A stretch of 38,972 nucleotides of DNA from Acidobacteriota bacterium (GTDB taxonomy: Bacteria > Acidobacteriota > Terriglobia > Acidiferrales > UBA7541). A program made the position numbers and the translations under genes. Within the stretch, counting starts at the first letter, position 1, and each line of letters begins with the position of its first letter. The stretch covers positions 1 to 38,972 of the forward strand of contig QHZB01000065.1 in assembly GCA_003224525.1 (NCBI GenBank). The letters run 5' to 3'. Under the pieces are notes generated by a model that saw only the letters and a program-made list of their open reading frames with translations, was not told where the DNA came from and made no database searches. Shown in pieces: positions 16,294 through 38,099 of the stretch.

Positions 16294-16347
16294 GGTAGGA
16301 AATTCTCGCTGCGCGCAAGACGCGGGGAATTTCGACGCCCCCTCCGC

Positions 16348-16376
16348 TTGCAAAGCCATTTTGCCCTTACTATAAA
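16348..16376 (+). promoter_or_regulatory. Sigma-70 promoter for the CRTAC1-GH130 unit
   Basis: TTGCAA (16348-16353) and TATAAA (16371-16376) are spaced by 17 bases and face the CRTAC1 gene at 16428, giving a leader of about 45 bases. It lies inside the divergent intergenic region next to the glycosidase start. Confidence 0.55.
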
Positions 16377-16427
16377 GGATGGCGGCAGATTTTAGCATGA
16401 GCCAAAGCAGGGAAGGTACCATTCGAT

Positions 16428-18204: not shown

Positions 18205-18217
18205 GGAGTCACCGAAC

Positions 18218-19225
18218 ATGCATGACGTAAAGCCCAAGATTTTCATCGCGCCGTTGCTCCTGGCTGCCTCGCTCGCTTTCGCGGCGCCGGCAACGGATCT
18301 TCCTTTCGGCGCATGGACGCGCGCCTCAAACGAGCCCATCCTTTCTCCGCAGGGCAGGACGTGGGAATCGGCCGGTACGTTCAATCCCACCGTCACATTT
18401 TTTCGGGCCAAGGATGCCAACAAACAAGATCCTGGCAAATTCGTAATGCTTTACCGTGCGCAGGACGCTGCAGGTACGTCGCGCCTCGGCTATGCCGAGA
18501 GTACCGATGGGATTCACTTCACGCCACGCCCCGATCCAGTCCTCTGGCCTGAAACCGCCTACGAAAAAGACGGCGGCGTCGAAGACCCACGCCTCCAGAA
18601 ATTCGGCGACACCTTTTACCTCACCTACACCGGCTATAACAAAAAGGATGCGCAGCTCTGCCTGGCCACCTCCCGCGATCTGATCCATTGGGATCGCAAA
18701 GGCGTGATCCTGCCCGCCTACAAAGGAAACTGGAATGTGGCCTGGACCAAGTCCGGCGCCATCGTGCCCGAAAAAATCGACGGCAAGTATTGGATGTACT
18801 GGCTTGGCACTGCCGCGGACAAGACCGACCAAATGGGCCTGTCGTATTCCACCGATTTGATTCACTGGACAGAAGCGACGGATGCGCCGGTGCTGCCGCG
18901 CCGCCCGGAGAAATTTGATTCGCGCGTGGTCGAGCCCGGTCCTCCACCGATCCTCGCACCGGGCGGCATCGTCCTGATCTACAACGGCGCCGACGACAAA
19001 CTTGTGTATCGCACCGGCGTCGCGGTCTTCGACCGCAAGGATCCCCGCAAACTCCTCTCGCGATCCGACGCCCCCATCTTCGCCCCGGAAAAAGAATGGG
19101 AGAGGGCCGGGCAAGTGCCGAACGTTATATTCGTGGAGGGGATGGTGCAACAGGGCAAGCGGTGGCTCTTTTACTATGGGGGAGCAGACAAATATATAGG
19201 GGTGGCGGAAGCACCCTCGAAATGA
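18218..19225 (+). CDS. Exported GH130-type mannoside phosphorylase/hydrolase
   Basis: A 335-residue five-bladed beta-propeller glycosidase of the GH130 type, with a signal peptide (FIAPLLLAASLAFAAPA). Family features are ESAGTFNPTVTF, MLYRAQDAAGTSRLGYAES, GGVEDPRLQKFGDTFYLTYT with the conserved VEDPR acidic motif, ESRDLIHW-like TSRDLIHWDRKG, VVEPGPPPI and WLFYYGGADKYIGVAEA. GH130 enzymes act on beta-mannosides. Most are cytoplasmic phosphorylases, but some exported members are beta-1,2-mannosidases. Export here favours hydrolysis, since periplasmic phosphate is limited; this is an inference. A GAGGAG ribosome-binding site precedes the ATG. It lies 13 bases after the CRTAC1 gene, so the two are probably cotranscribed. 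Confidence 0.85.
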   Translation: MHDVKPKIFIAPLLLAASLAFAAPATDLPFGAWTRASNEPILSPQGRTWESAGTFNPTVTFFRAKDANKQDPGKFVMLYRAQDAAGTSRLGYAESTDGIHFTPRPDPVLWPETAYEKDGGVEDPRLQKFGDTFYLTYTGYNKKDAQLCLATSRDLIHWDRKGVILPAYKGNWNVAWTKSGAIVPEKIDGKYWMYWLGTAADKTDQMGLSYSTDLIHWTEATDAPVLPRRPEKFDSRVVEPGPPPILAPGGIVLIYNGADDKLVYRTGVAVFDRKDPRKLLSRSDAPIFAPEKEWERAGQVPNVIFVEGMVQQGKRWLFYYGGADKYIGVAEAPSK

Positions 19226-20257: not shown

Positions 20258-22009
20258 TCAGTTTTTCCCGGGGCCTGCGACGACGGGCGTGCCAGAGCCT
20301 TCCTTCAGAGTGTGAATGGCGTCGGCGGAAAGGTTGCCGAATTCTTCGAGGAGACCGCTAGGCCAGCGGACTTGGACTCCATCGATTTTGGCGGAGGCGC
20401 CGAGGCCGAAGTGCACGCGCTTGTCGTTATTGGAGACAAAGCTGGAGCCGCTGCGGACTTCGTCCACGAGAGAGCGCGCGGCTTTCACGGTGACTTTCGC
20501 GCCGATTCCATCGCGATTGGACTTGACACCGATTGTGCGGAAGGCGATCCAGTGATTGCCGTTGCGGACGTCATTGACGAGAAGAGACGGAAGAGCATTC
20601 ATGTTGCTGACGACCGCGGAAATGCGGCCGTCATTCCATAAATCGCCGACGGCCAGGCCGCGCGAAGAACTTACCGCCGTGATGCCCGGCCCGGCAGCGG
20701 CGGAGATATCGGTAAAAGTTCCGTTGCCATTGTTGCGATAGAGGATGCGCGGTTCCCGGAAATTGCTGCCGAGGTGCTGGCTGTCGACTTCGGGATAGAC
20801 GTGGCCGTTGACGAGGAGCAGATCGGGCCAGCCATCATTGTCGAAATCGAGGAACATGACGCCCCACCCGAGATATTGCGTGTTCAAACCGAAACCGGCG
20901 GAAAAGGTCTTGTCGTCGAAGGTGCCGTCACCGTTGTTGCGGTAAAGCGTGGAGGTGTCGTCGGAGAAATTGGTCTTGAAAAGGTCAAGTTTCCCGTCGC
21001 CGTCATAATCCGCAACAGTCGATCCCATGCCAGCCTGCTCGCGGCCGTCGTCGTTGAAGGCTGCGCCCGAGACGACAGCGACGTCGGTAAACGTTCCATC
21101 GTGATTGTTGCGATAGAGGATACTCGCCGTGCTGTCGCAGGCCACATAGATGTCCGGCCAGCCATCGTCATCATAGTCAAACGTGGAAACGCTGAAGGCG
21201 TAATGCCCGTTGGTTTGATCGATGTGCGCTTTGGCGGTGACGTCTTCGAAGGCGCCGTTGCCGAGATTGCGATAGAGGATATTTTTCGCCCAGGGCAATC
21301 CGCGCGGCCCGCACATGACTGGAACACCTTTCCACATGCAGGAGGGCCGCTCTCCCGGCGCGAGAGCGGTGGCGGAATCATAGTCGACATAATTCGCGAC
21401 CATTAGATCGAGTTTGCCGTCGCGGTCGTAGTCCAGGAAAGCGCAGCCTGTACCCCAGGCTTTGCCGGTCCCCGCGACATGGGCTTTTTCGCCGACGTCG
21501 GTAAAGGTGCTGTTGCCATTGTTGTGATAGAGAACGTTCTTGCCGTAGTAGGTGACGTAGAGATCCTCGAATCCGTCGTTATCGTAGTCGCCCACACAGA
21601 CACCCTGGCCCCATCCAGCGTGGGTCAAACCGGCTTTGGCGGTGACGTCGGTGAACGTGCCATCGTGGTTGTTGTGATAGAGGTGGCTCGTCGGGGCCTT
21701 GGCAGACGGCAATTGTTCCAATGTTGTGCCGTTGACGACAAATATGTCCGGCCAGCCGTCATTGTCATAATCGAACATGGCGACGCCGGTCCCCGTGGTC
21801 TCGATGATGTATTTCTTGGTGTTTTCGCCGCCGAAGATGACCGGTGTTGTAAGACCGGCTTTCTGCGCGATGTCGGTAAAATACGCGATCGGCTTGGCGT
21901 TTGCGCCCTCTGAATTACCCGCGCTAGGAGAATTGGCGGAATGTATTGAAAGCCAAGCGCAAAGCCCCAGGAAGCAGAGAAGCCGGAGAAAAGAGGAATG
22001 AAGAATCAT
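20258..22009 (-). CDS. CRTAC1/ASPIC-UnbV beta-propeller protein (intact)
   Basis: A 583-residue exported protein with a signal peptide (FLRLLCFLGLCAWLSIHS). It carries a chain of FG-GAP/VCBS blades, each with a calcium-type loop such as DYDNDGWPDIFVVNG, DYDNDGFEDLYVTYYG, DYDRDGKLDLMVANY and DFDNDGWPDLLLVNG. The C-terminal ASPIC/UnbV domain shows VDEVRSGSSFVSNNDKRVHF and VRWPSGLLEEF. A GGAG ribosome-binding site is five bases before the ATG. In Acidobacteriota and Planctomycetota these proteins are often encoded beside TPR proteins, as here, where a long TPR gene diverges 133 bases away. The biochemical role is not known; a seven-bladed ligand- or protein-binding scaffold is likely. It is the paralogue of the damaged gene at 16428-18204. 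Confidence 0.9.
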   Translation of the reverse strand: MILHSSFLRLLCFLGLCAWLSIHSANSPSAGNSEGANAKPIAYFTDIAQKAGLTTPVIFGGENTKKYIIETTGTGVAMFDYDNDGWPDIFVVNGTTLEQLPSAKAPTSHLYHNNHDGTFTDVTAKAGLTHAGWGQGVCVGDYDNDGFEDLYVTYYGKNVLYHNNGNSTFTDVGEKAHVAGTGKAWGTGCAFLDYDRDGKLDLMVANYVDYDSATALAPGERPSCMWKGVPVMCGPRGLPWAKNILYRNLGNGAFEDVTAKAHIDQTNGHYAFSVSTFDYDDDGWPDIYVACDSTASILYRNNHDGTFTDVAVVSGAAFNDDGREQAGMGSTVADYDGDGKLDLFKTNFSDDTSTLYRNNGDGTFDDKTFSAGFGLNTQYLGWGVMFLDFDNDGWPDLLLVNGHVYPEVDSQHLGSNFREPRILYRNNGNGTFTDISAAAGPGITAVSSSRGLAVGDLWNDGRISAVVSNMNALPSLLVNDVRNGNHWIAFRTIGVKSNRDGIGAKVTVKAARSLVDEVRSGSSFVSNNDKRVHFGLGASAKIDGVQVRWPSGLLEEFGNLSADAIHTLKEGSGTPVVAGPGKN

Positions 22010-22142
22010 GAATCTCCAATAATAGCAAGGTCTGGTCCGACACAGGTCAACCTGGCGGGAATCTCAGCCAAACAGCTTGGGGGAGAGGGCGCGGGTGTGA
22101 ACATGCTAGTATTTTTGAGAACGCTTAACAGGTATCTTTCGC

Positions 22143-23951
22143 GTGAAATTGATTCTCGTTCATCACCGGACGCCTTTTTTCCGACTCTCTAACGCGCTGC
22201 TGTTTTTCTTCTGCGCTGCTGCGGTGATATGCGCCGCGCAATCCGCGGGTTCTTCGAAGGCGGATTCAGCTTCGCGGGCGACTGCGACTTACCAGCAAGG
22301 TATGTTGGCGCTGCAGAAGGGCGATCTGGTTTCCGCTCGCGCAGCTTTCGAAAAAGTGGTGCGGCTTGCACCGAGGAGCCCCGAGGGACACAACTCTCTC
22401 GGCTGGGTCTTGCTTGCGCAAGGAGAGATCGATGCTGCAACCGTTCACTTCCGGTCTGCGGTGAAACTGAATCCCGATTTTGCGCTGGCCCACATGAATT
22501 TCTCCAGCGCGCTAGTCCGGAAGGGTGATGTGCTTGCCGCGCTCCAGGAGGCCAAGGAGGCGGTGCGGCTAGCCCCGGGCGACTCCGAGACTCATCACAT
22601 TTTGGCGCGCGCGCTCGATTTTTCAGGGGACCTCGACGGGGCCATCGGCGAGTTTCGGCGGGCGCTCGAGCTTGAGCCGCAAAGGGCGGAATTGCACGAC
22701 GATCTCGGGGCTGTGTTGGTGCAAAAGTCTGACTCGCAAGGCGCAGCCGCGGAATTCTCCGAAGCGCTCCGGCTGCAGCCCAATTATGCGCTAGCACATT
22801 TTCATCTCGGCGTTTTGCTTTACCAGGAAAAATCTCTCGAACAGGCCGCGCAACACCTGCAAGCTGCAGTGCAACTGAATTCCGCGGACCCGGGCGGTCA
22901 CTATTATTTCTCGCAAGTTCTAAACAGCAGGAGCGAGACGGATGCGGCGATCCGCGAGCTGCAAGCTTGTATTGCATTGAAGCCGGACTACCCTGACGCG
23001 CAAAATAGCCTGGGCTTGCTGCTCCAGCACAACGGCGAGGCTGAGCAATCCATCAAAGCCTTTCGTCAGGCGGCGAAGCAGCAACCGGAAAGCCCGGACA
23101 CACACAATAATCTGGGGCTCGCCTTGTTGCAGACTGGTGACGGCAATGGGGCGATCGCCGAGTTCGAAACGGCAGTCCGTTTGCGGCCCGAGGACAGTGG
23201 ATACAAAGGGAACCTGGGAGCAGCGCATTTGCAAGTGGCAGACTTCGACGCCGCTATTTATGAATTCGAATCGGCGCTTAAGCTTGCGCCGCTGGACGCA
23301 ACCCTGCACTACGACCTCGGGCTCGCGCTCAAATTGAAAGACAAACTGCCGGAGGCCATGGCCGAACTGCGCAAGGCAGCAGAATTAGATCCCGGGCAAG
23401 CGGATGTGCACTACACGCTGGGGGTGACACTTTGGCAGCAAGGCGACTTTGCTGCGGCCGCGGAGGAACTCCACGCAGCCATTCATGCCAAACCGGACTA
23501 TGCCGAGGCCTACTACACGCTGGGAACGGTGCTGAAGCAGAAGGGCGAGCTCCAAGAGGCTGCAGCTGCTTTGCGGGAAGCGATTCGCCTGCAGCCAGAA
23601 TTTGCAGGTGCTCATACCACCCTGGCAACGGTGCTGCGCCAACTGGGTGACGCGGAAGGTGCGGCTGCGGAAGGCCGTACTGGAATGGAAATCGCAAAAC
23701 AAAAGACCAGCGATCAGGCGGCGCTCTTTGCAACAAATTCGGGGCGCAGGCTTCTCAACGCGGGAGACCTGCAGGGCGCCATTTCGCAATTTCGCGCCGC
23801 GATCGGTTCTTCGCCAAAGTATGCGGCCGCCCACTTTGAATTGGGGATGGCTTTGCGTCAGCAGGGCAAATCCGGGGAGGCCCAAGAAGAATTTCGAAAG
23901 GCCGCAGAACTCGATCCTCGCCTGACGCCTCCGCCGTCTCCAAAGAAATAG
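22143..23951 (+). CDS. Exported long TPR-repeat protein
   Basis: A 602-residue protein made almost entirely of tetratricopeptide repeats, roughly 15 copies, after an N-terminal signal sequence (SNALLFFFCAAAVICAAQ). Repeats such as EGHNSLGWVLLAQGEIDAAT, PDTHNNLGLALLQTGDGNGA and AEAYYTLGTVLKQKGELQEA show the canonical W/L-G-Y-A-F-A-P spacing with few breaks. The frame begins with a GTG codon, and no strong ribosome-binding site is visible, so the exact start is uncertain. TPR arrays bind proteins and assemble complexes; in this position the divergent CRTAC1 protein is the obvious candidate partner. No catalytic domain is present. Confidence 0.88.
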   Translation: MKLILVHHRTPFFRLSNALLFFFCAAAVICAAQSAGSSKADSASRATATYQQGMLALQKGDLVSARAAFEKVVRLAPRSPEGHNSLGWVLLAQGEIDAATVHFRSAVKLNPDFALAHMNFSSALVRKGDVLAALQEAKEAVRLAPGDSETHHILARALDFSGDLDGAIGEFRRALELEPQRAELHDDLGAVLVQKSDSQGAAAEFSEALRLQPNYALAHFHLGVLLYQEKSLEQAAQHLQAAVQLNSADPGGHYYFSQVLNSRSETDAAIRELQACIALKPDYPDAQNSLGLLLQHNGEAEQSIKAFRQAAKQQPESPDTHNNLGLALLQTGDGNGAIAEFETAVRLRPEDSGYKGNLGAAHLQVADFDAAIYEFESALKLAPLDATLHYDLGLALKLKDKLPEAMAELRKAAELDPGQADVHYTLGVTLWQQGDFAAAAEELHAAIHAKPDYAEAYYTLGTVLKQKGELQEAAAALREAIRLQPEFAGAHTTLATVLRQLGDAEGAAAEGRTGMEIAKQKTSDQAALFATNSGRRLLNAGDLQGAISQFRAAIGSSPKYAAAHFELGMALRQQGKSGEAQEEFRKAAELDPRLTPPPSPKK

Positions 23952-24024
23952 CGAAACAGAAGCTACAGAATCTCTTGGGATGAGGCGCTGCTAATCGAGT
24001 AGGGATTGGTTCTTTCGAATGAGG

Positions 24025-25284
24025 CTATTGAGGGCTCTTACGCAGCGCAACGAGTTCCGAACTAACTGGAACTCCCTTGGCGACTTTCACGCGAATTACC
24101 GCTTCGAACGGCTTCAGTTCACCTGAGTTCGAAACAGAGAGCCGCAAGAGCAACTCTTCCAACGAATTTTGCTGGCAGACGTATTCCACGGCAGCTTGCG
24201 TGCCGATGGTGGTGGCGCCTGCCAGAATCAGGACCGAATGTGCGGGATTCAATCCCCGCTTTAGCGCTATGATTGAATAGTCTTCCGCCAGGGTCTCGTC
24301 AGGCAGAGACGGAAGAAACTCCTTCGGTTCGCCCGATTCCGGATGAAAATTGATGATCTCCATGGTGCCCGTGCGCGGCCCGGAAGTGATCTGTTTGAAG
24401 GCGAATTCCTGGGTGTTTGGTAATTCCAAGAGCGTCAGATTTTCCGAAGGCGACCCAATGAAGATGAGATCGTTGTTCTTGGCGTCATCCAGGGAGAACA
24501 AGCTGCCGCGCTTGACGTGAATTTGCTGATGAAGTCTTCCGAAAACGCTGTCGAGAGCGTGCACCGCAAGCACTTCGCCGACTCCGGTATAGTGATCCAG
24601 GATCGCCGCGCCGGAATCCTTGGCTCGATTGTAGTAGCGCATGCCAACGTACGGCCGGCCGACAAAGGCTGCGTTACTGAAGATGACCCACGGCTCCTGC
24701 GGTCCGGTGAGAAAGCCCTTCCAGAAAACGTGAAAAGCAACCGGCACATCCGGGTTATCGCTTGCGAGCCGGGCTTCCGCTATTTTGCGGTTCAGGAAGC
24801 GGTCCGTGGCAACAGCGACGGCGGAGGCGAGAACAACTGAGAGCGCAACGACGGTGACGATCCAGGCACGCGAAGTCCGGGCGTTGACCTGCAAATTGTT
24901 TGGTGCTTCCTGAGAAGTATTCGCGTGGTTCCGCCCCGCCCCGTGGGTACGCGGATGGAAAGCTAGGGCGTAGGTGCCTTTGAGCAGTTCCACCATGATT
25001 TGGTCGTCTGCACCCTCAGAGGCATAGTATTCGGCTAATTTGGTGCGCAAGCGGCCCGCCTGGACGCGGACCATCGAGTCCACGTGCGGATCGAAGTCCT
25101 GCTGGCGCCCGAGCACTTCTGTCGCAATTTGGTACTCCTTTGGGGAGAGACCCGGGTGATCCATGGAATGATTCGCCAGATAACGCAATAGTTTGCAAAG
25201 GGACTCCGAACCGTGCAGAGTATGGCTGCTGAGGAGCTTCTCGATTTGAGCGAGATTTTGGACTCTTTCAGTCACGGGGACCAC
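24025..25284 (-). CDS. Membrane-tethered winged-helix regulator with periplasmic sensor domain
   Basis: A 419-residue one-component regulator. Residues 10-115 form a DNA-binding winged-helix-like domain of a type I know from Acidobacteriota (KEYQIATEVLGRQQDFDPHV, DSMVRVQAGRLRTKLAEYYA, IMVELLKGTYALAF). One membrane helix follows at about 143-168 (AWIVTVVALSVVLASAVAVA). The remaining 250 residues should be periplasmic and contain NNDLIFIGSPSENLTLLELP and VAFHVFWKGFLTG. The arrangement resembles CadC/ToxR-type regulators that read a signal outside the membrane and bind DNA directly. It is divergent from the second TonB-dependent receptor, its most likely target. The start codon is a GTG without a clear ribosome-binding site; a slightly shorter form is possible. 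Confidence 0.75.
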   Translation of the reverse strand: MVPVTERVQNLAQIEKLLSSHTLHGSESLCKLLRYLANHSMDHPGLSPKEYQIATEVLGRQQDFDPHVDSMVRVQAGRLRTKLAEYYASEGADDQIMVELLKGTYALAFHPRTHGAGRNHANTSQEAPNNLQVNARTSRAWIVTVVALSVVLASAVAVATDRFLNRKIAEARLASDNPDVPVAFHVFWKGFLTGPQEPWVIFSNAAFVGRPYVGMRYYNRAKDSGAAILDHYTGVGEVLAVHALDSVFGRLHQQIHVKRGSLFSLDDAKNNDLIFIGSPSENLTLLELPNTQEFAFKQITSGPRTGTMEIINFHPESGEPKEFLPSLPDETLAEDYSIIALKRGLNPAHSVLILAGATTIGTQAAVEYVCQQNSLEELLLRLSVSNSGELKPFEAVIRVKVAKGVPVSSELVALRKSPQ

Positions 25285-25720
25285 CGCTCGGGCATTGTAA
25301 CATCAAGGTAACGCGCTCCGCATCTCTTTAGGAGACCACAACTTATCTCGCGTAACCGTATCAGACTCATAGAGACTATCCAGGTCACTCAAAAAACTGA
25401 TAGAAGGCATCATAACTCTTCGTCACCCCTAGTTTGGGTGCGGGCCTCTCTGTGTGGGGAGGGCTCAAGAGTAGTAACGATTGTGCGGTGGTGACGAAGC
25501 GAGAGAAGTTCGAGGAGTTTGGGGGCCGTTCGCTGCGGACAGTTGGGTCCAACAGGTTGCCGTTTATTCCATTTTTATCTTGAAGACTGCCCAAATCAGT
25601 TAAGCCCTGCCGAGGCGCGGGCGTGGTACCTGTTGAACTAAGCTGGCGAACGTGGTGGATTCCCCGTTTATGCGGCGAGTGGACCTATTCGAAGAGTCAA
25701 CGGTGCACAGGAGGGGTGTA
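25285..25720. other. Divergent regulatory region between regulator and receptor
   Basis: About 435 bases separate the regulator from the receptor gene. No gene or confident promoter was recognised. The only clear signal is the AGGAGG ribosome-binding site of the receptor. Operator sites for the regulator would be expected here, but I see no inverted repeat strong enough to list. Confidence 0.4.
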
Positions 25721-28700
25721 ATGAAAAAGCAAGCAATTCTAGGATGGATTCTGGTTCTTTGTCTCGCGCTTGGGTTCGGCGCCAGCACGTCTCTGGGACA
25801 GGCCGTGTACGGAAGCATTATTGGCACCGTAACTGACCAGCAAGGAAACGCAGTTGCTGGAGCTAAAGTTACGGTAACGTCGGTAACAAAAAACACGAGT
25901 GAGGAAACCACGACGAATGATAGTGGAAATTTTTCGGTAATCCACCTGATCCCTGACACCTATAAGGTCAAAATCGAGGCGGCGGGATTCAAGGTCAATG
26001 ATGTGGCTAGCGTCCTGGTGCAGGTGGACACGACAGCGCGCGTCGATGCGCAGTTGCAAGTTGGCGCCGTCACACAAACGGTCGAAGTCACTGGCGAGGT
26101 TCCGCAGCTCAAGACGGACCGCGCCGACATCTCACTGGATTTTAGTTCGGACTACGTCGAGAAGCTCCCCTTGGTGAACCGCAATTTTCAGTCGCTCCTC
26201 TTGGATGCGCCCGGGTCACAGCAACTGGTGGGTTGGAGCCATGCCGCCACGGAAAATCCACAGGGGTCGCAGCAGACTTTCGTCCAAGGCCAGCACTTCA
26301 GTGGTACGGGTTATGAACTGGACGGTACCGACAATCAGGACCCCATCTTGGGGATCATCATCATCAACCCCAACTTGGACTCCGTTGGGGAAGCGAAGAT
26401 TACGCTTTCGAACTTTGACGCTGAGTTCGGAAAGGCCATTGCTGGCTTGATGGTGGCGTCGACCAAGTCCGGCACCAACGACATTCACGGCAGCGCTTTC
26501 TGGTTCCGGAATTCCGACGCCACGCAGGCGCGCAACCCCTTCAACCAGGGACCGAATACGCCGCTCCCGTCCGCAAAATGGAATCAGTTTGGCGGTTCGG
26601 TCGGCGGTGCGGTTATCAAGAATAAGTTATTTTACTTTGGCGATTACCAGGGGACTCGTCAGGCCAGCGGAGTCACCAACAATATAACCATTCCTACGTC
26701 CACGGTTTTGAGCACATGTACGGCTTCAACAGGTACGTGCGACTTGAGCCAATATCTGGGCAACGTTTCTGGCGGCAACGGCCAGATTTATGATCCAAAC
26801 ACAGGAGATCCGAATACCGGCGTGGGACGCACTGCTTTTCCCGGCAACAAGATTCCAGTCGGCATGTTGTCTCCCGTGGCTGTTGCCATTTTGAAACTTT
26901 TTCCGCAGCCGATTAACAATAACCTGACCAATAACTTCTTCGGCTCCGGTTCTGGCCCGTTCCACGGAAATTCCTTTGACGCTCGGGGTGACTACCAAGC
27001 GGCGGGAAACCTACATATCTTTGGGCGTTACACCCGAGCGTTCTACAGCCTAACTGGGCAACCCAATTTGGGTATTGCGCTTGGTGGTGTGGGAGGCGGA
27101 GTCGGGGGACTGAGCGGCAGCTCCAACATTCACAACCACAGCTTAGCGACAGGGTTCGACAAAGCCATCAGCACAACGCTCCTGACCGACTTCCGGTTCG
27201 GCTGGTTCCAATACAATCCGCATTCCATAAAGCCGGACGCTAACGTCGCGGCGGCAGAAGCTTTGGGGCTGCACGGATTGAACCTTCCCAGCGACTCGTC
27301 CACCGGAGGTCTACCGGCTTTCGTGTGGGACAGCGGGGATAACAAAAATACGCAATTGACTGATTTTGGAGACGGCTTGGATCCCTCAAGGTGCAACTGC
27401 CCGTTGATCGAGAAAGAGCACCAATACCAGTTTGTGAACAACTGGACGAAGATAAGCGGCAACCACACCATGAAGGTTGGCGCGGACATCCGCTTCGCAC
27501 ACAACCTGCGTTTCCCGAGCGATGCGAATCGAACGGGTCAACTCTCTTTCAACCACCTGGAGACATCCAACAGGGTCCAAGACCCCGTGACTCTCAAATT
27601 TTCACAAGTCGGCGGTTTGGATCTGGCCTCGTTCCTCTTGGGTGATGTTTCTTTCTTTGAGCGTTTCGCGAGCACGACGCAGACCGCATCGGAAAGCCAG
27701 AAGCGCTTTTTCCTTTACGCTCAAGACAGTTTCCGATTGACCAGCAAATTGACGTTCACCTACGGCATGCGCTGGGAGGACTACACTCCCGAATCCGTGA
27801 ACACCAAGGGTAACGGCGGTTTCGCCAACCTCTCCCAAGGCGTTATTCGCGTGGGCGGTTTCGGTCCCTACGGCCTTAATGGCGGCATCAACAGTTACCT
27901 CGGCGGGTTCGCGCCTCGCCTCGGCATCGCGTATCAGGTACGGCCAAAGACCGTGGTGCGTATCGGCTACGGGCGCAGCTTTGACATAGGAGTGTTCGGC
28001 TCGAACTTTGGTCATGCGGTAACGCAAAATCTCCCCGTGCTGGTTCATCAGACGCTCAACCCGAATGATACCAATCCGCTGGCCATCAATGGTAACGTCC
28101 CGGTGTATAACATATCCGGACTAAATGGACTTCCCGACCAGCCGACGACAGCCCCGTTTCCGGTCGTTCCTTCCAGTGGCATATTGCCGCTGAAGGGCCC
28201 GAATGGAAATGTGGACCCGAGGATTCGTCCCACAACACAGCGAGTGGCTGCGGTAGATATGTGGAACGCGACGGTTCAACATCAACTAACGTCAACGATA
28301 AGCGTTGAGGTCGCGTACCTTGGCAATAAGGGAACACACGGCTTTGCCGGTGACGGGCCTGCATATAACGTCAATCCAAGAAGCATCGTCGGGTTTGGTG
28401 GTCCGAATCCGGACAACCGACGCCCCTACTTTGGAAAATTTTCGACACCCTACTTCGATCCAGCAACTAGCATAACGACCAATGTTGTGTGCTGCTCGAC
28501 GGACTTGGGCAACTACTTTGGCATGGATGCGAGCAGCAATTACAACGCGTTGCAGCTTAAGGTAGAAAAGCGGGTCTCGCAGGGCCTTCAATTCGTCTCA
28601 CATTACACTTGGTCTCGGGCGAGGTTCCACGATTCCAATTATTATGCGATCGATCCAAGCGTTGCGTATGGGCCCGACGATCAGAACCGCAATCACGTCT

Positions 28701-29317
28701 GGGTAACAAACATTTTGTATGAGTTGCCGTTCGGCAAAGGCAAGAAGTATATGAGCAGCGCCAACACGCTGACGGACCACGTCATCAGTGGTTGGAGATT
28801 GACCAGCACTACGAATTGGAGTGGTGGTCTGCCGTGGACGCCGAGCTACAGCTTATGTGACAAAGACCAGGATGTCGGTGTCTGCCGTCCCGATAGAGGC
28901 TCAGGCGCGTTCTCTCAGGGTGTTCACAGAGATCCGAGCTCAGGCGCTCTCGTGTGGTTCACACCCATTCCGCTACTGGCTACTAACGGCGCGACAGGAG
29001 GAGCTTTCAGTCGTCCGGCGGCGGGTACGCTCGGCAACATCGGCTTCGACTCGTTCCGCGGGCCGCACCTGTTTACCTCAAACCTCTCGCTCGCGAAAAA
29101 CTTCCGAATCACCGAGCGATACAAGGCGGAATTCCGCATGGACGCGAATAACATTTTCAACCACCCGGTAATGGGTTTCAACGCCAACCAGGGGAACCAT
29201 TGCATCGATTGCGCGGGTCCGAACACGGATCCTAAAGCCGATGCAGGGAAGATCACCAACATCGAACAAGACACGAATATGCGACTACTCACGTTCGGGT
29301 TGAGATTCTCTTTCTAA
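25721..29317 (+). CDS. Second Oar-type TonB-dependent receptor
   Basis: A 1198-residue outer-membrane receptor. The frame is open from 25652, but the ATG at 25721 has an AGGAGG ribosome-binding site and starts a proper signal peptide (MKKQAILGWILVLCLALGFG). A carboxypeptidase-regulatory-like domain follows (about 30-110; YGSIIGTVTDQQGNAVAGAK), then a plug domain (about 120-250; YVEKLPLVNRNFQSLLLDAP) and a long beta-barrel ending in LLTFGLRFSF with the C-terminal phenylalanine. It is clearly a distant paralogue of the receptor at 2897, with the same domain order. It is followed by a redoxin and a copper-monooxygenase-like gene, and a membrane regulator is divergent to it. The ligand is unknown. 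Confidence 0.93.
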   Translation: MKKQAILGWILVLCLALGFGASTSLGQAVYGSIIGTVTDQQGNAVAGAKVTVTSVTKNTSEETTTNDSGNFSVIHLIPDTYKVKIEAAGFKVNDVASVLVQVDTTARVDAQLQVGAVTQTVEVTGEVPQLKTDRADISLDFSSDYVEKLPLVNRNFQSLLLDAPGSQQLVGWSHAATENPQGSQQTFVQGQHFSGTGYELDGTDNQDPILGIIIINPNLDSVGEAKITLSNFDAEFGKAIAGLMVASTKSGTNDIHGSAFWFRNSDATQARNPFNQGPNTPLPSAKWNQFGGSVGGAVIKNKLFYFGDYQGTRQASGVTNNITIPTSTVLSTCTASTGTCDLSQYLGNVSGGNGQIYDPNTGDPNTGVGRTAFPGNKIPVGMLSPVAVAILKLFPQPINNNLTNNFFGSGSGPFHGNSFDARGDYQAAGNLHIFGRYTRAFYSLTGQPNLGIALGGVGGGVGGLSGSSNIHNHSLATGFDKAISTTLLTDFRFGWFQYNPHSIKPDANVAAAEALGLHGLNLPSDSSTGGLPAFVWDSGDNKNTQLTDFGDGLDPSRCNCPLIEKEHQYQFVNNWTKISGNHTMKVGADIRFAHNLRFPSDANRTGQLSFNHLETSNRVQDPVTLKFSQVGGLDLASFLLGDVSFFERFASTTQTASESQKRFFLYAQDSFRLTSKLTFTYGMRWEDYTPESVNTKGNGGFANLSQGVIRVGGFGPYGLNGGINSYLGGFAPRLGIAYQVRPKTVVRIGYGRSFDIGVFGSNFGHAVTQNLPVLVHQTLNPNDTNPLAINGNVPVYNISGLNGLPDQPTTAPFPVVPSSGILPLKGPNGNVDPRIRPTTQRVAAVDMWNATVQHQLTSTISVEVAYLGNKGTHGFAGDGPAYNVNPRSIVGFGGPNPDNRRPYFGKFSTPYFDPATSITTNVVCCSTDLGNYFGMDASSNYNALQLKVEKRVSQGLQFVSHYTWSRARFHDSNYYAIDPSVAYGPDDQNRNHVWVTNILYELPFGKGKKYMSSANTLTDHVISGWRLTSTTNWSGGLPWTPSYSLCDKDQDVGVCRPDRGSGAFSQGVHRDPSSGALVWFTPIPLLATNGATGGAFSRPAAGTLGNIGFDSFRGPHLFTSNLSLAKNFRITERYKAEFRMDANNIFNHPVMGFNANQGNHCIDCAGPNTDPKADAGKITNIEQDTNMRLLTFGLRFSF

Positions 29318-29480
29318 CAGGGACGAGGACACCCCCACCACCCCGACGGGGAGCCTCCTGACAGGCTACCTGTTTTAACTCTAAGTCTGTGTGGAGCGTT
29401 TCAACAAAACGCTTGGGAATTGGACAGAGTGCTTTATCCCGAAGTAAGATTTTTGGTGTCAGTCCCTCAGGGACACACTC

Positions 29481-30077
29481 ATGCGTAGTCGTAGCCCTAC
29501 TTTGCGGCAACTATTATCTTTCCTCCTGTCTATTGTGGTGGCAGCACCTCTCCTTCTAGCATTGCCCTCTTCGCCCGCCGCTCAGAAGACGGCTCTGTAT
29601 CTCGACGGCACCCCGGCAGATCCCTTTTTGGCAGCTTCGGGAAAGCCTGTTGTGCTCATCTTCGTACGTACCGACTGCCCTATCTCCAACCGCTATGCGC
29701 CGCTGATTCAGCGAATCAGCTCCGAATACGGCGCTAAGGTTGCGTTGTGGCTCGTCTACCCCAGCAGGACCTCTTCCGCTGAAAAAATTCGCGAACATGA
29801 ACACGACTACGGCTACAAACTCCCCGCGCTGCGCGATCCACAACACGCACTCGTGACTCAAGCTCAAGTCCAGGTCACCCCGGAAGCGGCTGTTTTCGAC
29901 GCCAATCACCACCTGCTCTATCACGGCCGCATCGATGACTTGTACCAGGATTTCGGGCGCGCCCGCCCCGCGGCCACCACACACGAACTCGACGATGCCA
30001 TCCGAGCCGCTCTCAGCGGGAAAACACCGCCACCCAATGCGCCCGGGGTGGGATGCTACATCGCGGACCTCGAATGA
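29481..30077 (+). CDS. Exported redoxin-like protein
   Basis: A 198-residue thioredoxin-fold protein exported by a signal peptide (LLSFLLSIVVAAPLLLALPS). The active-site region reads VLIFVRTDCPISNRYAP with Cys66; the second CxxC cysteine is replaced by serine (CPIS). A second cysteine, Cys192, sits near the C-terminus in GVGCYIADLE. These DCPISN redoxins are known to me from Acidobacteriota and Planctomycetota, where they are often fused or adjacent to cytochrome c and copper-dependent monooxygenase-like domains. That fits here: the next gene starts at an ATGA overlap with this stop codon, so the two are translationally coupled. A role in copper delivery or thiol redox control of the partner is plausible but unproven. 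Confidence 0.82.
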   Translation: MRSRSPTLRQLLSFLLSIVVAAPLLLALPSSPAAQKTALYLDGTPADPFLAASGKPVVLIFVRTDCPISNRYAPLIQRISSEYGAKVALWLVYPSRTSSAEKIREHEHDYGYKLPALRDPQHALVTQAQVQVTPEAAVFDANHHLLYHGRIDDLYQDFGRARPAATTHELDDAIRAALSGKTPPPNAPGVGCYIADLE

Positions 30078-31862
30078 CCTCTTCAGGCCGAACTATCGTT
30101 GCATGGTTGCTCGGATTCAGCTCCGCCACTGCAGCGGCCTTTGCCACACACGACGGTGCCACCGAGCGGCCCTCCATGCCTACCGCACAGCAGGCCACCT
30201 TCAATCGCGATATCGCTCCCATTCTTTTTCGGTACTGTGCCCCGTGCCACCGCCCCGGCGAAGCTGGCCCTTTCCCGCTACTTACCTACGCAGATGCAAA
30301 GGCCCGCGCCCGCCAGATCGGCGCACTAACCTTGAAGCGCATCATGCCTCCGTGGCTGCCGGAGCCGCAGGAGTTGAGATTTGCCGACGAACTCCGCCTG
30401 TCCGACGAGCAGATTACACTGATTCAAAAGTGGGTCGAGCAGGGGACGGTCGAGGGCGCTCCCGCCGATCTGCCACCTGCCCCACAACTTGTCCCAGGCT
30501 GGCAGCTCGGCCGTCCGGATGAAATCATCGAAGCGGAAAAACCGTACGCTCTTCCCGCGAGTGGCTCCGACATGTATTGGAATTTCATCTTTCGAACGCC
30601 TGTCGATCGCACGCGCTGGCTAAAAGCCATCGAGATCCGGCCCGGCGACAAACGTGTCGTTCACCACGCGAATATTCTCGTGGATCGCAATCAATCCGCG
30701 CGCCGCTTGGAGGCAGAGCCGCGCGCGGGTTTCCCCGGGATGGAACTCAAGATCGAATCAGAAGCGTTTGATCCGGACAGCCACTTCCTCTTCTGGAAAC
30801 CCGGCACCGTGCCTAAGCCCGAGCCTGAAGGTATGTCTCTGCGCCTGGACAAAGACACTGATTCCGAATCTTGGGCTGTACTTCACAGACAAGCCCGCGA
30901 CCCACTTCCCTCTGCTGCTCCAATTGGAAAACGACAAGCAGCTCGACATCCCTCCTGGCGAAAAACGCTTCTTGGTCACAGACGAATTTACGCTGCCGGT
31001 CGATGTGGATCTGCTAGCGATCTATCCCCACGCGCATTATCTCGGCAAGGATCTACAAGCCCTCGCCACTCTACCCGACGGCTCGACGAAAACACTCATT
31101 CACATTCCGCAATGGAACTTGAACTGGCAAGCTGTCTACCGCTACGCAGATCCCGTGCCTTTGCCGAAGGGTACCACCATCTCCATGCGCTATACTTACG
31201 ACAATTCCGTTGAAAATCTTGCCAACCCAAACGACCCTCCACGCCGCGTCGCCGCCGGGAATCGCTCCAGCGATGAGATGGCTCACCTTTGGCTTCAGGT
31301 CCTTCCACGCGTCTCCTCCAATGCAGATTTCGATCCGCGCATGTTGTTGCAGGAAACTATGGCCCGGCACAACTTGGAAAAGAATCCTGCCGATTTCGAA
31401 GCACACTACAACCTCGCGGCCATGCTCCAAGCCCGCGGTGCGCAAGCCGAGGCGATCCAGAACTTCGAACTCGCGGTGCGTCTTCGCCCTCAAGACCCTA
31501 CCGCCAATAATGCCCTGGGCGCGTCTCTCCTGGCCGCGGGGCGAATCGGCGAGGCCATACCATATCTGAATGCCGCGCTCCGGGCGCAGCCAGACAATTT
31601 TGACGCGCAGTACAATTTGGCAAGTGCTCTTGCTTCTCAGGATAAGTTCCTCGAGGCAATTGCGCACTATCGCGCCGCTATCCGCTTGCATCCGGACGAC
31701 GCCAACGCGGAGGCCAACCTGGGTAACGCTCTGGCCGAAGCGGGCAAGCTCTCTGAGGCCAAGCTGCATTTTCAGCGCGCCCTGCGGATCGATCCCAATC
31801 ACAAATTAGCACGCGAGAATCTCGAACAAATCAACCGCGATCCAAAGAATCTTCAGCAGTAA
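30074..31862 (+). pseudogene. Cytochrome c / copper type II monooxygenase-like / TPR protein, frameshifted
   Basis: A multi-domain exported protein with one frameshift near 30863. Residues 44-125 are a cytochrome-c-like domain with the haem motif CAPCH (Cys55, Cys58, His59). A domain like peptidylglycine alpha-hydroxylating monooxygenase follows: His197-His198 in KRVVHHANIL match the CuH pair, and after the shift HAH (YPHAHYLG) and the methionine of SSDEMAHLW match the CuM site. At least four TPR units form the C-terminus (AHYNLAAMLQARGAQAEAIQ). At RLDKDTD the frame breaks and resumes at LGLYFTDKPATHF. About 15-20 residues that normally hold the third CuH histidine are missing. It starts in an ATGA overlap with the redoxin. 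As written it cannot give a full protein. Confidence 0.82.
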
Positions 31863-31989
31863 CGGAGAGTTTGCTTATTCTTGAAGTTGCAAGAGTATCG
31901 GGACTGATGATCGTGCTTGAGCCAGTTGCACTAGAGGTTCCAACATTCGCAAAGTTCGCCATACGACCGACATTTTAGCGGCGGGACTA

Positions 31990-33030
31990 TTGGCTGGTTT
32001 TCTGCCCGTCTGGGGTGTCGTTTCGGCGCATACGGCTTCGCAAAGAATGCCCCCTCAGTCGGGCAAGGCAGCGAAGCAAGAGTCGGACGGTTCACAAGAT
32101 CCGGCGTTTGCCGAGGCGCGGCGCCTTTCACAGCAGGCCAAATTCGATGAGGCAATCGCGAAACTCGAGGCACTGGCAACAAATGACCCGAACTTGAGGG
32201 GACTTGCGCATGAGCTGGGGGTTACCTATTACAAGAAGAGCGACTATCTGAAGGCGGTGGCCAGCTTCAAGAAAGCGCTGGAGGAAGATCCTGGCGATAA
32301 CGAAGCGGTGCAATTGATGGGGCTGTCGTATTACCTCGCTGGGCGGCCTGGGGAGGCCATAGCGCCGCTTGAAAAGGTCCAGACGTGGTACCCCAGCTCA
32401 AATGTCGATGCCTCCTACATTCTTGGAATTTGCTACCTGCAGACAAAAGACTATCCCAACGCGCGGAAGGCCTTCGCTAAGATGTTTGCTGTGCCGGCCG
32501 ATTCCGCGGCCAGTTATCTGTTTACGGCTCGGATGTTGCTGCGGCAGGATTTTGGACCTGTTGCGGAGGAATACGCAAAAAAGGCGGTGGAAATGGATCC
32601 CAAGCTTCCGCTGGCACATTCGCTGCTCGGAGAGCTGTATCTCTATAAGTCCCGCATGCCGGAAGCCGTCGAGCAGTTTCAGAAGGAGCTGGAGCTGAAT
32701 CCGGGGGAAGCGGCGGTGTATTACAAGCTGGCGGATGCTTATAGCCGATTGCAGAAATACGAGGAGGCGGAAAGACTTCTTCAGCGCTCCATCTGGCTGG
32801 ATGCCACATCGACGGGGCCTTATATCCTGATGGGAAAGGTCCTGGAGAAGAAAGGCGAGACCGCCCTTGCCGTGCGCGCCTTACAGCGCGCCATCGCCAT
32901 GGATCCCAATAACCCCATGCCTCACCATCTGCTCGGACAGGCCTATCGCGAATTGGGCCGGACCGAAGAGGCGGAGCGCGAACTTAAGTTGGCGGAGCAA
33001 TTGCAGATTCATCAAGACGCAAAGCCTTGA
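31990..33030 (+). CDS. Exported TPR-repeat protein
   Basis: A protein of about 346-361 residues made of roughly eight TPR units (LAHELGVTYYKKSDYLKAVA, YYKLADAYSRLQKYEEAERL, PHHLLGQAYRELGRTEEAER). The first recognised start is a TTG at 31990, but this would cut into the signal peptide. In frame upstream is RKVRHTTDILAAGLLAGFLP, a good export signal, preceded by ATT at 31945 with an AGAGG sequence before it. The true start may therefore be this rare ATT, or a mutated ATG. It follows the copper-monooxygenase-like gene by about 125 bases and precedes the GH13 enzyme by 40 bases, so it may belong to the same transcription unit. Its partner is unknown. Confidence 0.82.
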   Translation: MAGFLPVWGVVSAHTASQRMPPQSGKAAKQESDGSQDPAFAEARRLSQQAKFDEAIAKLEALATNDPNLRGLAHELGVTYYKKSDYLKAVASFKKALEEDPGDNEAVQLMGLSYYLAGRPGEAIAPLEKVQTWYPSSNVDASYILGICYLQTKDYPNARKAFAKMFAVPADSAASYLFTARMLLRQDFGPVAEEYAKKAVEMDPKLPLAHSLLGELYLYKSRMPEAVEQFQKELELNPGEAAVYYKLADAYSRLQKYEEAERLLQRSIWLDATSTGPYILMGKVLEKKGETALAVRALQRAIAMDPNNPMPHHLLGQAYRELGRTEEAERELKLAEQLQIHQDAKP

Positions 33031-33070: not shown

Positions 33071-34828
33071 GTGTTGAAACGCGCAAAGATTATCTTCCCC
33101 CTCGTCACGATCGGCCTTTGCCTCGCGGCAGGTCCCGGCCGGACACAGCAAGCTCCGGCGAAAAGTCCGAAAGCGGAGCACGCTCCTGAGAAGGCGCCGG
33201 ACCCGTGGTGGAAGCACGCGGTCATTTACGAGATTTATCCGCGCAGCTTCCAGGATTCGAACGGTGACGGCGTCGGCGACATCAACGGGATTACTTCGCG
33301 CCTGGATTACCTTCGCGAGTTGGGCATCGATGCCATCTGGATTAGCCCCATGTACCCGTCACCCTTGGTGGATTTCGGTTACGACGTCTCCGACTACACA
33401 GCCATCGATCCTCTTTACGGCACACTGGCGGATTTCGACCGGTTAGTGAGTGAAGGGAAAAAACGAAATATCCGCGTGATCATGGATTTTGTTCCGAATC
33501 ACACGTCGGACCAGCATGCCTGGTTTGCGGAATCGCGTTCTTCGCGTACAAACCCGAAGCGCAACTGGTACATCTGGCGAGACGGGAAAGGGTCTGGCGA
33601 GCCGCCCAACAACTGGCAATCGTGGTTTGGCCATTCCGCGTGGAAATTCGACCCAATCACCAACCAGTATTACTACCATCACTTCTACACGGAACAGCCC
33701 GATCTGAACTGGCGCAATCCCCAAGTCCGGAACGCCATGTACGACGCCATGCGCTTCTGGCTCGGCCGTGGCGTGGCAGGGTTTCGAATCGACGCCGTGT
33801 CGCGCTTGTTTGAAGACCCGAATCTGCATGACGACCCCATCCTGCCCGGGAAGAATGCTTATGGCGATCCAAATATCGCCCACAAATACACGGACAATTT
33901 GCCGGAGGTTCATCAGGTGCTCCGCGAAATGAGAAGCGTGGTGAACGAGTATCCAGGGGATGCAGTCCTGATCAGTGAGGCCGACGAACCGAATATCGCT
34001 GAACTCACGAAAATGTATGGCAGCAAGAACGATGAAATCCAGCTGCCGATGGATTTTCAGATTGCCGACGTCAACAAACTCTCCGCGCCGGATTTCCGCA
34101 GGCTACTGGATGAAATCGACCGGAACCCGGCAGGCGGGCAGCCCCACTATTTCTTCAGCAATCATGATCAGCCGCGCCAGTGGGATCGCTACGGGGACGG
34201 CGTCCACAACGATCAGATCGCCAAGCTCATGGCGGCGCTCCTTCTAACCACTCGCGCGACGCCACTTATGTACTACGGCGAAGAGATCGGCATGCGGACC
34301 ACCGATCCCGTTCGCAAGGAAGACGTGCAGGATCCCATCGGACAACTCGGCTGGCCGCAGGAGAAGGGCCGCGACGGTGAACGCACGCCCATGCAATGGG
34401 ACACCTCAAAGGACGCGGGGTTCAGCACGGCGGAGCGCCCTTGGCTGCCCGTGCCGCCCAGTTCGGCCGAATACAATGTGAAGGCCGAATCGCAAGATCC
34501 CAACTCCATTCTGTCCTTCTACAAACGGCTGCTCGCGTTGCGCCGGAGCGAGCCGGCATTGCGAGATGGAAAATATCTGCCCGTGGATCAAGGCAACCCG
34601 GATGTTCTCAGTTTTCTGCGCAAGACTCCCGGGAAAGGCGACTCGATTCTTGTTGTGCTTAACATGAGTGCTGAACCAAGGACGGTCAGCTTCGCTCTCG
34701 ATGCTCACGGAGTCAGGGAAACTACTGCGAAGCCGCTAATTTCTGTTCCGAAAATTGCTCGTGAGTCGGCAGTCCTGGCTCATTTCACCGTTCCCGCTTT
34801 GGGAGTTTTTATCGGATCGGTTCACTGA
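33071..34828 (+). CDS. Exported GH13 alpha-glucosidase
   Basis: A 585-residue oligosaccharide alpha-glucosidase of the GH13 type. I start it at the GTG at 33071, which has a GGAG sequence six bases upstream and begins a signal peptide (IIFPLVTIGLCLAAGPG). The frame is open further upstream, but there it overlaps the TPR gene. The catalytic barrel shows YEIYPRSFQDSNGDGVGD, DFVPNHTS (region I), GFRIDAVS with the nucleophile Asp241 (region II), LISEAD with the acid/base Glu303 (region III) and SNHDQPR with Asp366 (region IV). The C-terminal beta domain ends in ALGVFIGSVH. It should split alpha-1,4 or alpha-1,6 glucosides outside the cytoplasm. The enzyme appears intact. Confidence 0.92.
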   Translation: MLKRAKIIFPLVTIGLCLAAGPGRTQQAPAKSPKAEHAPEKAPDPWWKHAVIYEIYPRSFQDSNGDGVGDINGITSRLDYLRELGIDAIWISPMYPSPLVDFGYDVSDYTAIDPLYGTLADFDRLVSEGKKRNIRVIMDFVPNHTSDQHAWFAESRSSRTNPKRNWYIWRDGKGSGEPPNNWQSWFGHSAWKFDPITNQYYYHHFYTEQPDLNWRNPQVRNAMYDAMRFWLGRGVAGFRIDAVSRLFEDPNLHDDPILPGKNAYGDPNIAHKYTDNLPEVHQVLREMRSVVNEYPGDAVLISEADEPNIAELTKMYGSKNDEIQLPMDFQIADVNKLSAPDFRRLLDEIDRNPAGGQPHYFFSNHDQPRQWDRYGDGVHNDQIAKLMAALLLTTRATPLMYYGEEIGMRTTDPVRKEDVQDPIGQLGWPQEKGRDGERTPMQWDTSKDAGFSTAERPWLPVPPSSAEYNVKAESQDPNSILSFYKRLLALRRSEPALRDGKYLPVDQGNPDVLSFLRKTPGKGDSILVVLNMSAEPRTVSFALDAHGVRETTAKPLISVPKIARESAVLAHFTVPALGVFIGSVH

Positions 34829-34898
34829 GGAATTTCGCGATTTCGATAAGCACGCTGTATCCTCCGTTCTGGCAACTGCCAGCTGCGGACTATGGAAC

Positions 34899-35237
34899 TC
34901 AGCTTTCCAGCTTGAAAATCCTTTCCAGCGGCAGCCACTTCTCCCCCGGCCGCGCTTCTGGCAAAGCCTTCTGAAACTTCCACATCAGCTTTTCCCACTC
35001 CTGCACTTTTTGATTCTTGCGGTCCGCCTCGGCTTTTTTCTCAAACGAAAAACTCTCGCTCACTTCCATGATCATGAACATTCGTGTCCCACGGAGATAA
35101 ATTTCCAGGTCCTCGATTCCTGCTTCCTTGATGCTTTTCGTGATCTCCGGCCAGATTTTTTCGTGGTAACGCTTATATTCGGCAATCAGCTTTGCATCGT
35201 CCTTCAAATCGAGCGTCAAGCAGTAGCGTCTGCTCAT
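34899..35237 (-). CDS. L-rhamnose/L-fucose-type mutarotase (RhaM family)
   Basis: A 112-residue protein of the RhaM/DUF718 dimeric alpha/beta-barrel family that interconverts the alpha and beta forms of a deoxy sugar. Family signs are CLTLDLKDDAKLIAEYKRYH, KIWPEI, YLRGTRMFMIMEVSESF and WEKLMWKFQKALPEA, with the active-site His/Trp segment YHEKIWPE. Its ATG overlaps the fucP stop codon in an ATGA arrangement, so it is the last gene of the fucose operon. The operon context suggests L-fucose rather than L-rhamnose as the substrate; sequence alone cannot separate them. Confidence 0.9.
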   Translation of the reverse strand: MSRRYCLTLDLKDDAKLIAEYKRYHEKIWPEITKSIKEAGIEDLEIYLRGTRMFMIMEVSESFSFEKKAEADRKNQKVQEWEKLMWKFQKALPEARPGEKWLPLERIFKLES

Positions 35238-36580: not shown

Positions 36581-36592
36581 CCCTAGTCTCCG

Positions 36593-38093
<1,501 letters not shown>

Positions 38094-38099
38094 GATTCT

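Follow-up and report, generated by a model that had tools for sequence, protein, structure and literature searches.

A conserved CRTAC1–TPR–CadC–Oar locus of Acidobacteriota with an exchanged outer-membrane receptor and a separable copper-enzyme module

The Acidobacteriota belong to the most common bacteria of soils. In the window analysed here, the whole 38,972-nucleotide stretch of the acidobacterial contig QHZB01000065.1 (contig C22 of the source genome G000, which spans 6.47 Mb in 516 contigs and is 98% complete), the gene of an Oar-type outer-membrane receptor lies among genes for exported tetratricopeptide repeat (TPR) proteins, a CRTAC1 protein, a membrane regulator, a redoxin and a protein combining cytochrome c, PHM and TPR regions, PHM being peptidylglycine alpha-hydroxylating monooxygenase. 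A sequence-only reading had proposed this set as a possible single envelope system, in which a ligand brought in by the receptor is oxidised by the copper, haem and redoxin proteins. Do these genes form one unit and, if not, which of them belong together? Comparison with relatives showed that CRTAC1, TPR1, CadC, Oar and TPR3 form a conserved core, syntenic across the genus, in which the receptor gene is swapped between relatives, and that the redoxin and PHM genes are a separable two-gene cargo.

The closest named relatives of the source genome are metagenome-assembled genomes (MAGs) labelled Acidobacteria 'gp2 AA'. Genomes are denoted by G and loci of relatives by L, and the same-genus set comprises 36 genomes, the source genome included. 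Genes in the window were called with an open reading frame (ORF) scan and a Pfam scan, and the locus reads as follows, with the support for each feature in brackets.

20258..22009, minus strand: CRTAC1 (FG-GAP propeller and ASPIC/UnbV), exported, core (Pfam, synteny)
22143..23951, plus strand: TPR1, exported TPR protein of 602 aa, core (Pfam, synteny)
24025..25284, minus strand: CadC-like membrane regulator of 419 aa, core (match in 29/36 same-genus genomes including its own, some cut; model; weak Trans_reg_C)
25297..25312, plus strand: GTAAC-N6-GTAAC direct repeat with an 11-bp period, candidate operator (intergenic comparison of 32 regions)
25352..25377, plus strand: conserved box GTAACCGTATCAGAC-N5-GAGACT within the promoter region between the divergent genes cadC and oar (32 intergenic regions and genome scans)
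25721..29317, plus strand: Oar-type outer-membrane receptor (CarboxypepD_reg and OMP_b-brl_4), exchangeable, core (Pfam, swap analysis)
29481..30077, plus strand: redoxin (DCPIS...GC), exported, optional cargo (upstream of PHM in relatives; solved relatives 2cvb and 3u5r)
30074..31862, plus strand: cytochrome c–PHM–TPR gene, interrupted by a 50-bp deletion near 30864 (ORFs, alignment, blastn; PHM fold of an intact homologue)
about 31990..33030, plus strand: TPR3, exported TPR protein, core (Pfam, synteny, hydrophobic N-terminus)

For CRTAC1, TPR1, the regulator (as a 419-aa protein), the receptor, the redoxin and TPR3, the Pfam and ORF scans agreed with the positions given by the sequence-only reading. 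The oar ORF opens at 25652, with a likely start at 25721 according to the reading of its N-terminus. The same reading had assigned export signals to all proteins but the regulator; hydrophobic N-termini were indeed found in all of these, but that of TPR3 is weak unless translation starts upstream of 31990.

A match to the regulator, in some cases cut, was found in 29 of the 36 same-genus genomes, and 19 of the 29 have the complete set of five core genes. Contig ends cut the core locus in seven (G001, G005, G008, G011, G014, G021 and G029), and three have a rearranged or reduced version (G019, G020 and G023). The linkage of the core genes exceeds chance: 20 arbitrary same-genus stretches, totalling 305 kb, contained no Oar or CadC match, and weak matches to CRTAC1, TPR1 and TPR3 in two, two and one of them, respectively. 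A lack of conserved linkage had been named as what would refute the grouping of these genes, and the grouping was not refuted by this test. Furthermore, CadC, Oar, redoxin and PHM recur together in other acidobacterial lineages, as judged by MAG title, at about 43-74% identity to the window proteins, not every gene being present in each case (L065-L068, L072, L073, L084 and L089), and in L109 Oar, TPR3, TPR1 and CRTAC1 all lie on one strand. The contig CAJCHZ010000001 (L091), titled Betaproteobacteria, carries the locus at gp2-like identity, and its title looks mislabelled.

Receptor and CRTAC1 genes also lie close together elsewhere in the source genome. Its 6.5 Mb hold 116 first-look Oar-type candidates (40 scored, with 41 matches) and 27 UnbV_ASPIC matches, and a second cluster (L052) carries a PHM gene, CRTAC1, Oar and two TPR genes on one strand. 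Outside the window, 15 of the 22 CRTAC1 genes in fetched loci have an Oar match within 5 kb. The expected proportion is about 24% given the 116 candidates (p 1e-5; p 0.004 assuming 200 Oar genes), in a count that uses a loose number of Oar candidates, treats neighbouring CRTAC1 genes as independent and leaves out three short CRTAC1 matches (C441, C423 and C218).

Unexpectedly, the receptor gene does not share the pattern of its flanks. Pairwise identities were correlated across 22 loci, L034, L162, L177 and L040 being omitted from pairs involving TPR1, TPR3 or CRTAC1. The flanking genes vary together (CRTAC1-TPR1 0.89, TPR1-CadC 0.88, CRTAC1-CadC 0.81, and 0.53-0.57 for pairs with TPR3); the identity of Oar correlates at 0.27 with CadC, 0.22 with CRTAC1, 0.38 with TPR1 and 0.17 with TPR3. 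Individual pairs depart in both directions: between the window and L033, CadC is 93% and Oar 51% identical, and between L037 and L166 the values are 71% and 92%. The DNA identity switches within oar past its first few hundred bases. At 70% identity the receptors of the 20 usable loci fall into four multi-member classes (A to D) and four singletons, L041 and L165 having given no usable Oar pairings. The oar gene is hence swapped between same-genus relatives at a fixed locus and its flanks are not. Searched by tblastn against plasmids, Oar returned 20 records, every one below 60% identity.

The sequence-only reading had also proposed that the regulator controls the locus, and a conserved cis element in the cadC-oar promoter region makes this likely. 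The comparison covered the first 200 bases in the window and in the 31 relatives' loci that hold both genes and the 5' end of cadC, none being dropped. At least 16 of the 19 positions of the pattern GTAACNGTATNAGACN5GANACTT are matched in 32/32 regions, and simple shuffling of the bases, repeated 20 times, produced no such match. When genomes were scanned with at most one mismatch allowed, the box turned up exactly once in 20 of the 25 from the genus and in 0 of 16 outside it, and a reversed control pattern gave no match. Nineteen of the 20 matches are placed just upstream of cadC, at a distance of about 65-90 bases from where the cadC match begins; the remaining one, in G001, is on a different contig from its cut cadC, and its position is unverified. 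The five genus genomes lacking the box are G002, G007, G009 and G010, which have no cadC, and G011, whose cadC lacks the 5' end. Near the cadC start, the GTAAC-N6-GTAAC repeat is perfect in 13 and within one mismatch in 21 of the 32 intergenic regions (shuffled mean 0.15). An 11-bp repeat spacing is typical of OmpR/PhoB-type operators, and the GTAAC repeat has the same spacing. The regulator may bind the region of box and repeat; alternatively, the box could be another promoter element.

The regulator itself was modelled at a mean pLDDT of 78. Its predicted fold comprises an N-terminal winged helix, one membrane helix and an alpha/beta outer domain; the hydrophobic peak lies at about residue 142 of the 419, within a modelled helix at 139-174 where confidence is low, and a single membrane helix between the DNA-binding and outer domains is thus predicted. 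A fold search returned a match to the ArlR domain (E 0.17, probability 0.91). Ten of 18 family members have weak Trans_reg_C matches (best E 0.0015, at a limit of E 1), and the window protein has no significant Pfam match of its own, neither to Trans_reg_C nor to any other curated family. The name 'CadC-like' given by the sequence-only reading is consequently kept on the predicted fold and the matches of its relatives, which weakly suggest the DNA-binding assignment, but finds no match in the window protein. A fold identity for the outer domain was sought and rejected, the S-layer anchor 9fsa being a weak match (E 0.0096). Predicted winged helix, single membrane helix and outer domain resemble those of one-component regulators of the CadC/ToxR type, from which the window protein differs in lacking a curated family match and in the weak fold matches of its outer domain.

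The redoxin and cytochrome c–PHM–TPR genes behave differently from the core. Counting a PHM ortholog at 60% identity or above, 20 of the 36 same-genus genomes have one: 12 at the locus, the source genome included, and eight elsewhere, on other contigs than cadC (G001, G003, G004, G015, G021, G023, G025 and G031). G008 and G029 were counted as 'at locus' by the TPR3 gene downstream, the upstream Oar fragment of G029 being distant. No ortholog was found in the other 16, several of which are incomplete assemblies. An inseparable unit of all six gene types is ruled out, as TPR3 follows Oar directly where redoxin and PHM are missing. The presence of PHM is nested in that of the regulator, with both in 20 genomes, the regulator only in nine and neither in seven (Fisher p 0.0014, uncorrected for kinship). 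The numbers of loci with and without the module are 3/3 in receptor class A, 2/2 in B, 1/2 in C and 2/1 in D, and four of the loci without it (L162, L168, L170 and L173) have the module on another contig. At the level of the genome, it is present in 3/6 of class A, 3/4 of class B and all of classes C (3) and D (3). The counts at the locus suggest that the placing of the copper module is independent of receptor class, which the genome-level counts, varying in A and B alone, leave unproven. The proposal of one envelope system is partly supported, the five core genes belonging together and the copper pair being separable.

What the optional module encodes can be judged from intact homologues. The L053 protein was modelled at a mean pLDDT of 89, and its residues 149-447 superpose on rat PHM with Z 20.5 and a root-mean-square deviation of 3.3 over 262 residues at 19% identity. 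The top 28 rows of a Foldseek search with this model were all PHM or dopamine beta-hydroxylase (DBH), indicating a predicted PHM fold; the match came from this fold search, the PHM domain having returned nothing at E 1 against PDB sequences. In an alignment (A4) of 59 homologues from 79 loci of wider relatives, C55, C58, H59, M91, H197, H198, H269, H336 and H338 are invariant, and position 388 is Met in 53 and Leu in six. The other 20 homologues, some complete and some cut, were checked separately. Among all homologues with the respective region, H197, H198 and H269 are present in 78/78, H336 and H338 in 77/77, and the haem motif CxxCH with M91 in 77/77, L131 lacking the N-terminal half; at position 388, 64 of 77 have Met, 12 have Leu and one has Phe. 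By their order, we take the five histidines to be the counterparts of rat H107, H108, H172, H242 and H244, the first three of which are named in PDB titles, so that the homologues would hold the three CuH histidines and the HxH pair of CuM. A PDB title likewise names rat M314, the counterpart of the CuM methionine. In predicted fold and in the order of their ligands the homologues thus resemble PHM and DBH, from which they differ in their fusion to cytochrome c and TPR, their redoxin partner and a sixth ligand (Met) that is not universal.

The sequence-only reading stated that redoxins accompany PHM-type genes. Of the 79 loci, 58 have a redoxin as the ORF immediately preceding PHM, and in one the two are fused. 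Three of the 20 misses (L117, L126 and L131) are loci with the enzyme gene at the edge of a contig; the other 17 are true misses for the profile used. The fusion, in a Bryobacterales MAG (L122:9599-11626), joins redoxin, cytochrome c, PHM and TPR in one 675-aa ORF, which argues for a functional partnership of redoxin and enzyme. The solved relatives of the redoxin include 2cvb, with which it has a C-terminal GC motif in common, and 3u5r. In L053/L033 and several other loci, Oar and redoxin are separated by a heptahaem cytochrome c–TPR gene (L053:7353-8939; L084:7270-9180), which was not found in the window. In the Planctomycetota homologues L119 and L127, several CRTAC1 matches (29-32%) stand upstream of the PHM–TPR enzyme, with no redoxin match.

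The window copy is not intact. The start codon at 30074 overlaps the redoxin stop in an ATGA, as the sequence-only reading had noticed, but the single gene that it described is ruled out by the frames and by a 50-bp gap relative to relatives. The frame opened at 30074 stops at 31213, and the C-terminal half of PHM and the TPR region lie in another, which ends at 31862. Aligned with 14 loci of relatives, the window is alone in lacking 50 bp near 30864; against 11 close relatives' loci, blastn gave a single 50-bp gap in seven and gaps of 45 or 27+23 bp in the other four (L053, which repeats L033, is uncounted). The deletion takes out the codon of the copper ligand His269 and shifts the frame, so that the window gene lacks the complete copper-ligand set and, unlike PHM and DBH, one His and an intact frame. 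Its PF03712 score is 21.6 bits against a curated cut-off of 23 (L053 18.3; L127 27.8). Whether the break is a fault of assembly or marks a pseudogene is evenly poised, and either is compatible with any reading of the locus. Conserved genes look similarly interrupted in five of nine gp2-AA MAG loci with a close PHM relative (L055, L056, L059, L060 and L087), and a further short deletion in the window, of 56 bp near 16840 relative to L050, shifts the frame of another CRTAC1 gene (16347-18201, plus strand) beside a GH130 gene. Both points speak for a fault; yet none of the 14 aligned relatives' loci shows a loss at the same site, and the early-ending PHM frame of a wider homologue (L098) indicates that real decay occurs or is mimicked there too.

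Carbohydrate genes flank the locus (13678-19225 and 33071-38972): an MGH1-like glycoside hydrolase (GH), GH130, GH13, a major facilitator superfamily (MFS) gene, two short-chain dehydrogenases/reductases and a galactarate/altronate dehydratase. The nearest of them follows TPR3:

33071..34828, plus strand: GH13 alpha-amylase-family enzyme, exported, accessory (Pfam)

How might these parts work together? We see about an even chance that this is a conserved outer-membrane uptake locus, similar to the CUT loci (carbohydrate utilisation with a TonB-dependent receptor), with an exchangeable receptor and an optional redox cargo. The Oar receptor would take up or bind an extracellular substrate, and the exported TPR and CRTAC1 proteins would act as accessory capture or scaffold proteins at the receptor. 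The membrane-anchored CadC-like regulator would sense an extracytoplasmic signal and use the box and the GTAAC repeats to control the divergent promoter of cadC and oar. Exchange of the receptor barrel by recombination would change specificity while the machinery stays. The redoxin and the cytochrome c–PHM–TPR protein would form an optional extracytoplasmic copper-oxidation module, broken in the window copy, in which haem c may pass electrons to a PHM-type dicopper site that the redoxin keeps or loads. Uptake itself and any class of substrate are here inferred. A more specific form of this proposal is possible and put forward tentatively: a fixed chassis of CRTAC1, two TPR proteins, a CadC-type sensor and a genome-unique operator, between whose host species Oar barrels and redox cargo are swapped, the TPR and CRTAC1 proteins serving as SusD-like partners of Oar.

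In Xanthomonas campestris, TonB-dependent receptors are overrepresented, and what defines a CUT locus is the combination of receptor, degradative enzymes, transporter and sugar-related regulator (PMC1790865). The present locus would be like these in having, in the window, a putative TonB-type receptor near degradative enzymes, a transporter gene of the inner membrane and a regulator, and an overrepresentation of receptors is a further likeness; it is unlike them in its CadC-like membrane regulator, its TPR and CRTAC1 partners, its non-conserved enzymes and its exchanged receptor. It may also resemble the SusC/SusD pairs of Bacteroidetes, in which a TonB-type receptor has exported helical-repeat partners, SusD adopting a TPR fold; the partners in the present locus are instead TPR proteins of a plain kind and CRTAC1. 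In a limited search of open-licence literature, no description of the gene set was found.

Several observations weigh against uptake of this kind. The Oar receptor matches OMP_b-brl_4 and TonB_dep_Rec_b-barrel, and a Pfam scan gave no Plug match at E 0.001; with no Plug domain reported for Oar, active transport is unproven. No SusD family is among the best 25 Pfam/NCBIfam rows for TPR1 and TPR3. Of the 20 relatives with enough sequence, only 10 carry a GH13 gene in the 2 kb that follow TPR3, and an MFS gene was seen in two fetched relatives (L033 and L165), so that carbohydrate genes are not a fixed part of the locus. The loose basis of the CRTAC1-Oar count and the weakly suggested DNA-binding domain of the regulator count on the same side.

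Two other explanations have to be set beside the uptake locus. The single pathway of the sequence-only reading, in which the receptor imports a ligand that the redoxin, cytochrome and PHM set oxidises while the TPR and CRTAC1 proteins act as a scaffold, appears rather unlikely. The linkage of its genes in 12/36 genomes and in other lineages favours it, as do the L052 cluster, the heptahaem cytochrome c–TPR gene near Oar and redoxin in relatives, and the presence of the module somewhere in the genome of every member of classes C and D. A further point in its favour is that every one of the 20 PHM genomes has the CadC locus too, including those in which module and locus are unlinked; the p-value of this nesting ignores both kinship and MAG gaps. 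Against it, the module is unlinked in eight genomes and not found in 16, its presence at the locus appears independent of receptor class, class A genomes have it in half of the cases, and the window enzyme is broken; oxidation of the receptor's ligand thus stays unproven. Surface variation driven by phages or bacteriocins, with the barrel swapped to escape predators and nutrient uptake secondary, would be in keeping with the decorrelation of Oar from its flanks and the switch of identity inside the gene past its 5' part; since selection for new substrates would give an equal pattern, it is considered unlikely as well.

Whichever force drives the exchange, the uptake locus proposed here bears on a receptor family with about 116 first-look candidates in one genome, of whose ligands and partners no description was found. 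The locus exposes a bacterial family of redoxin and cytochrome c–PHM–TPR enzymes. It also offers candidate Oar partners, naturally swapped receptors and a regulator for which one operator is predicted in each genome, and so makes Oar function directly testable.

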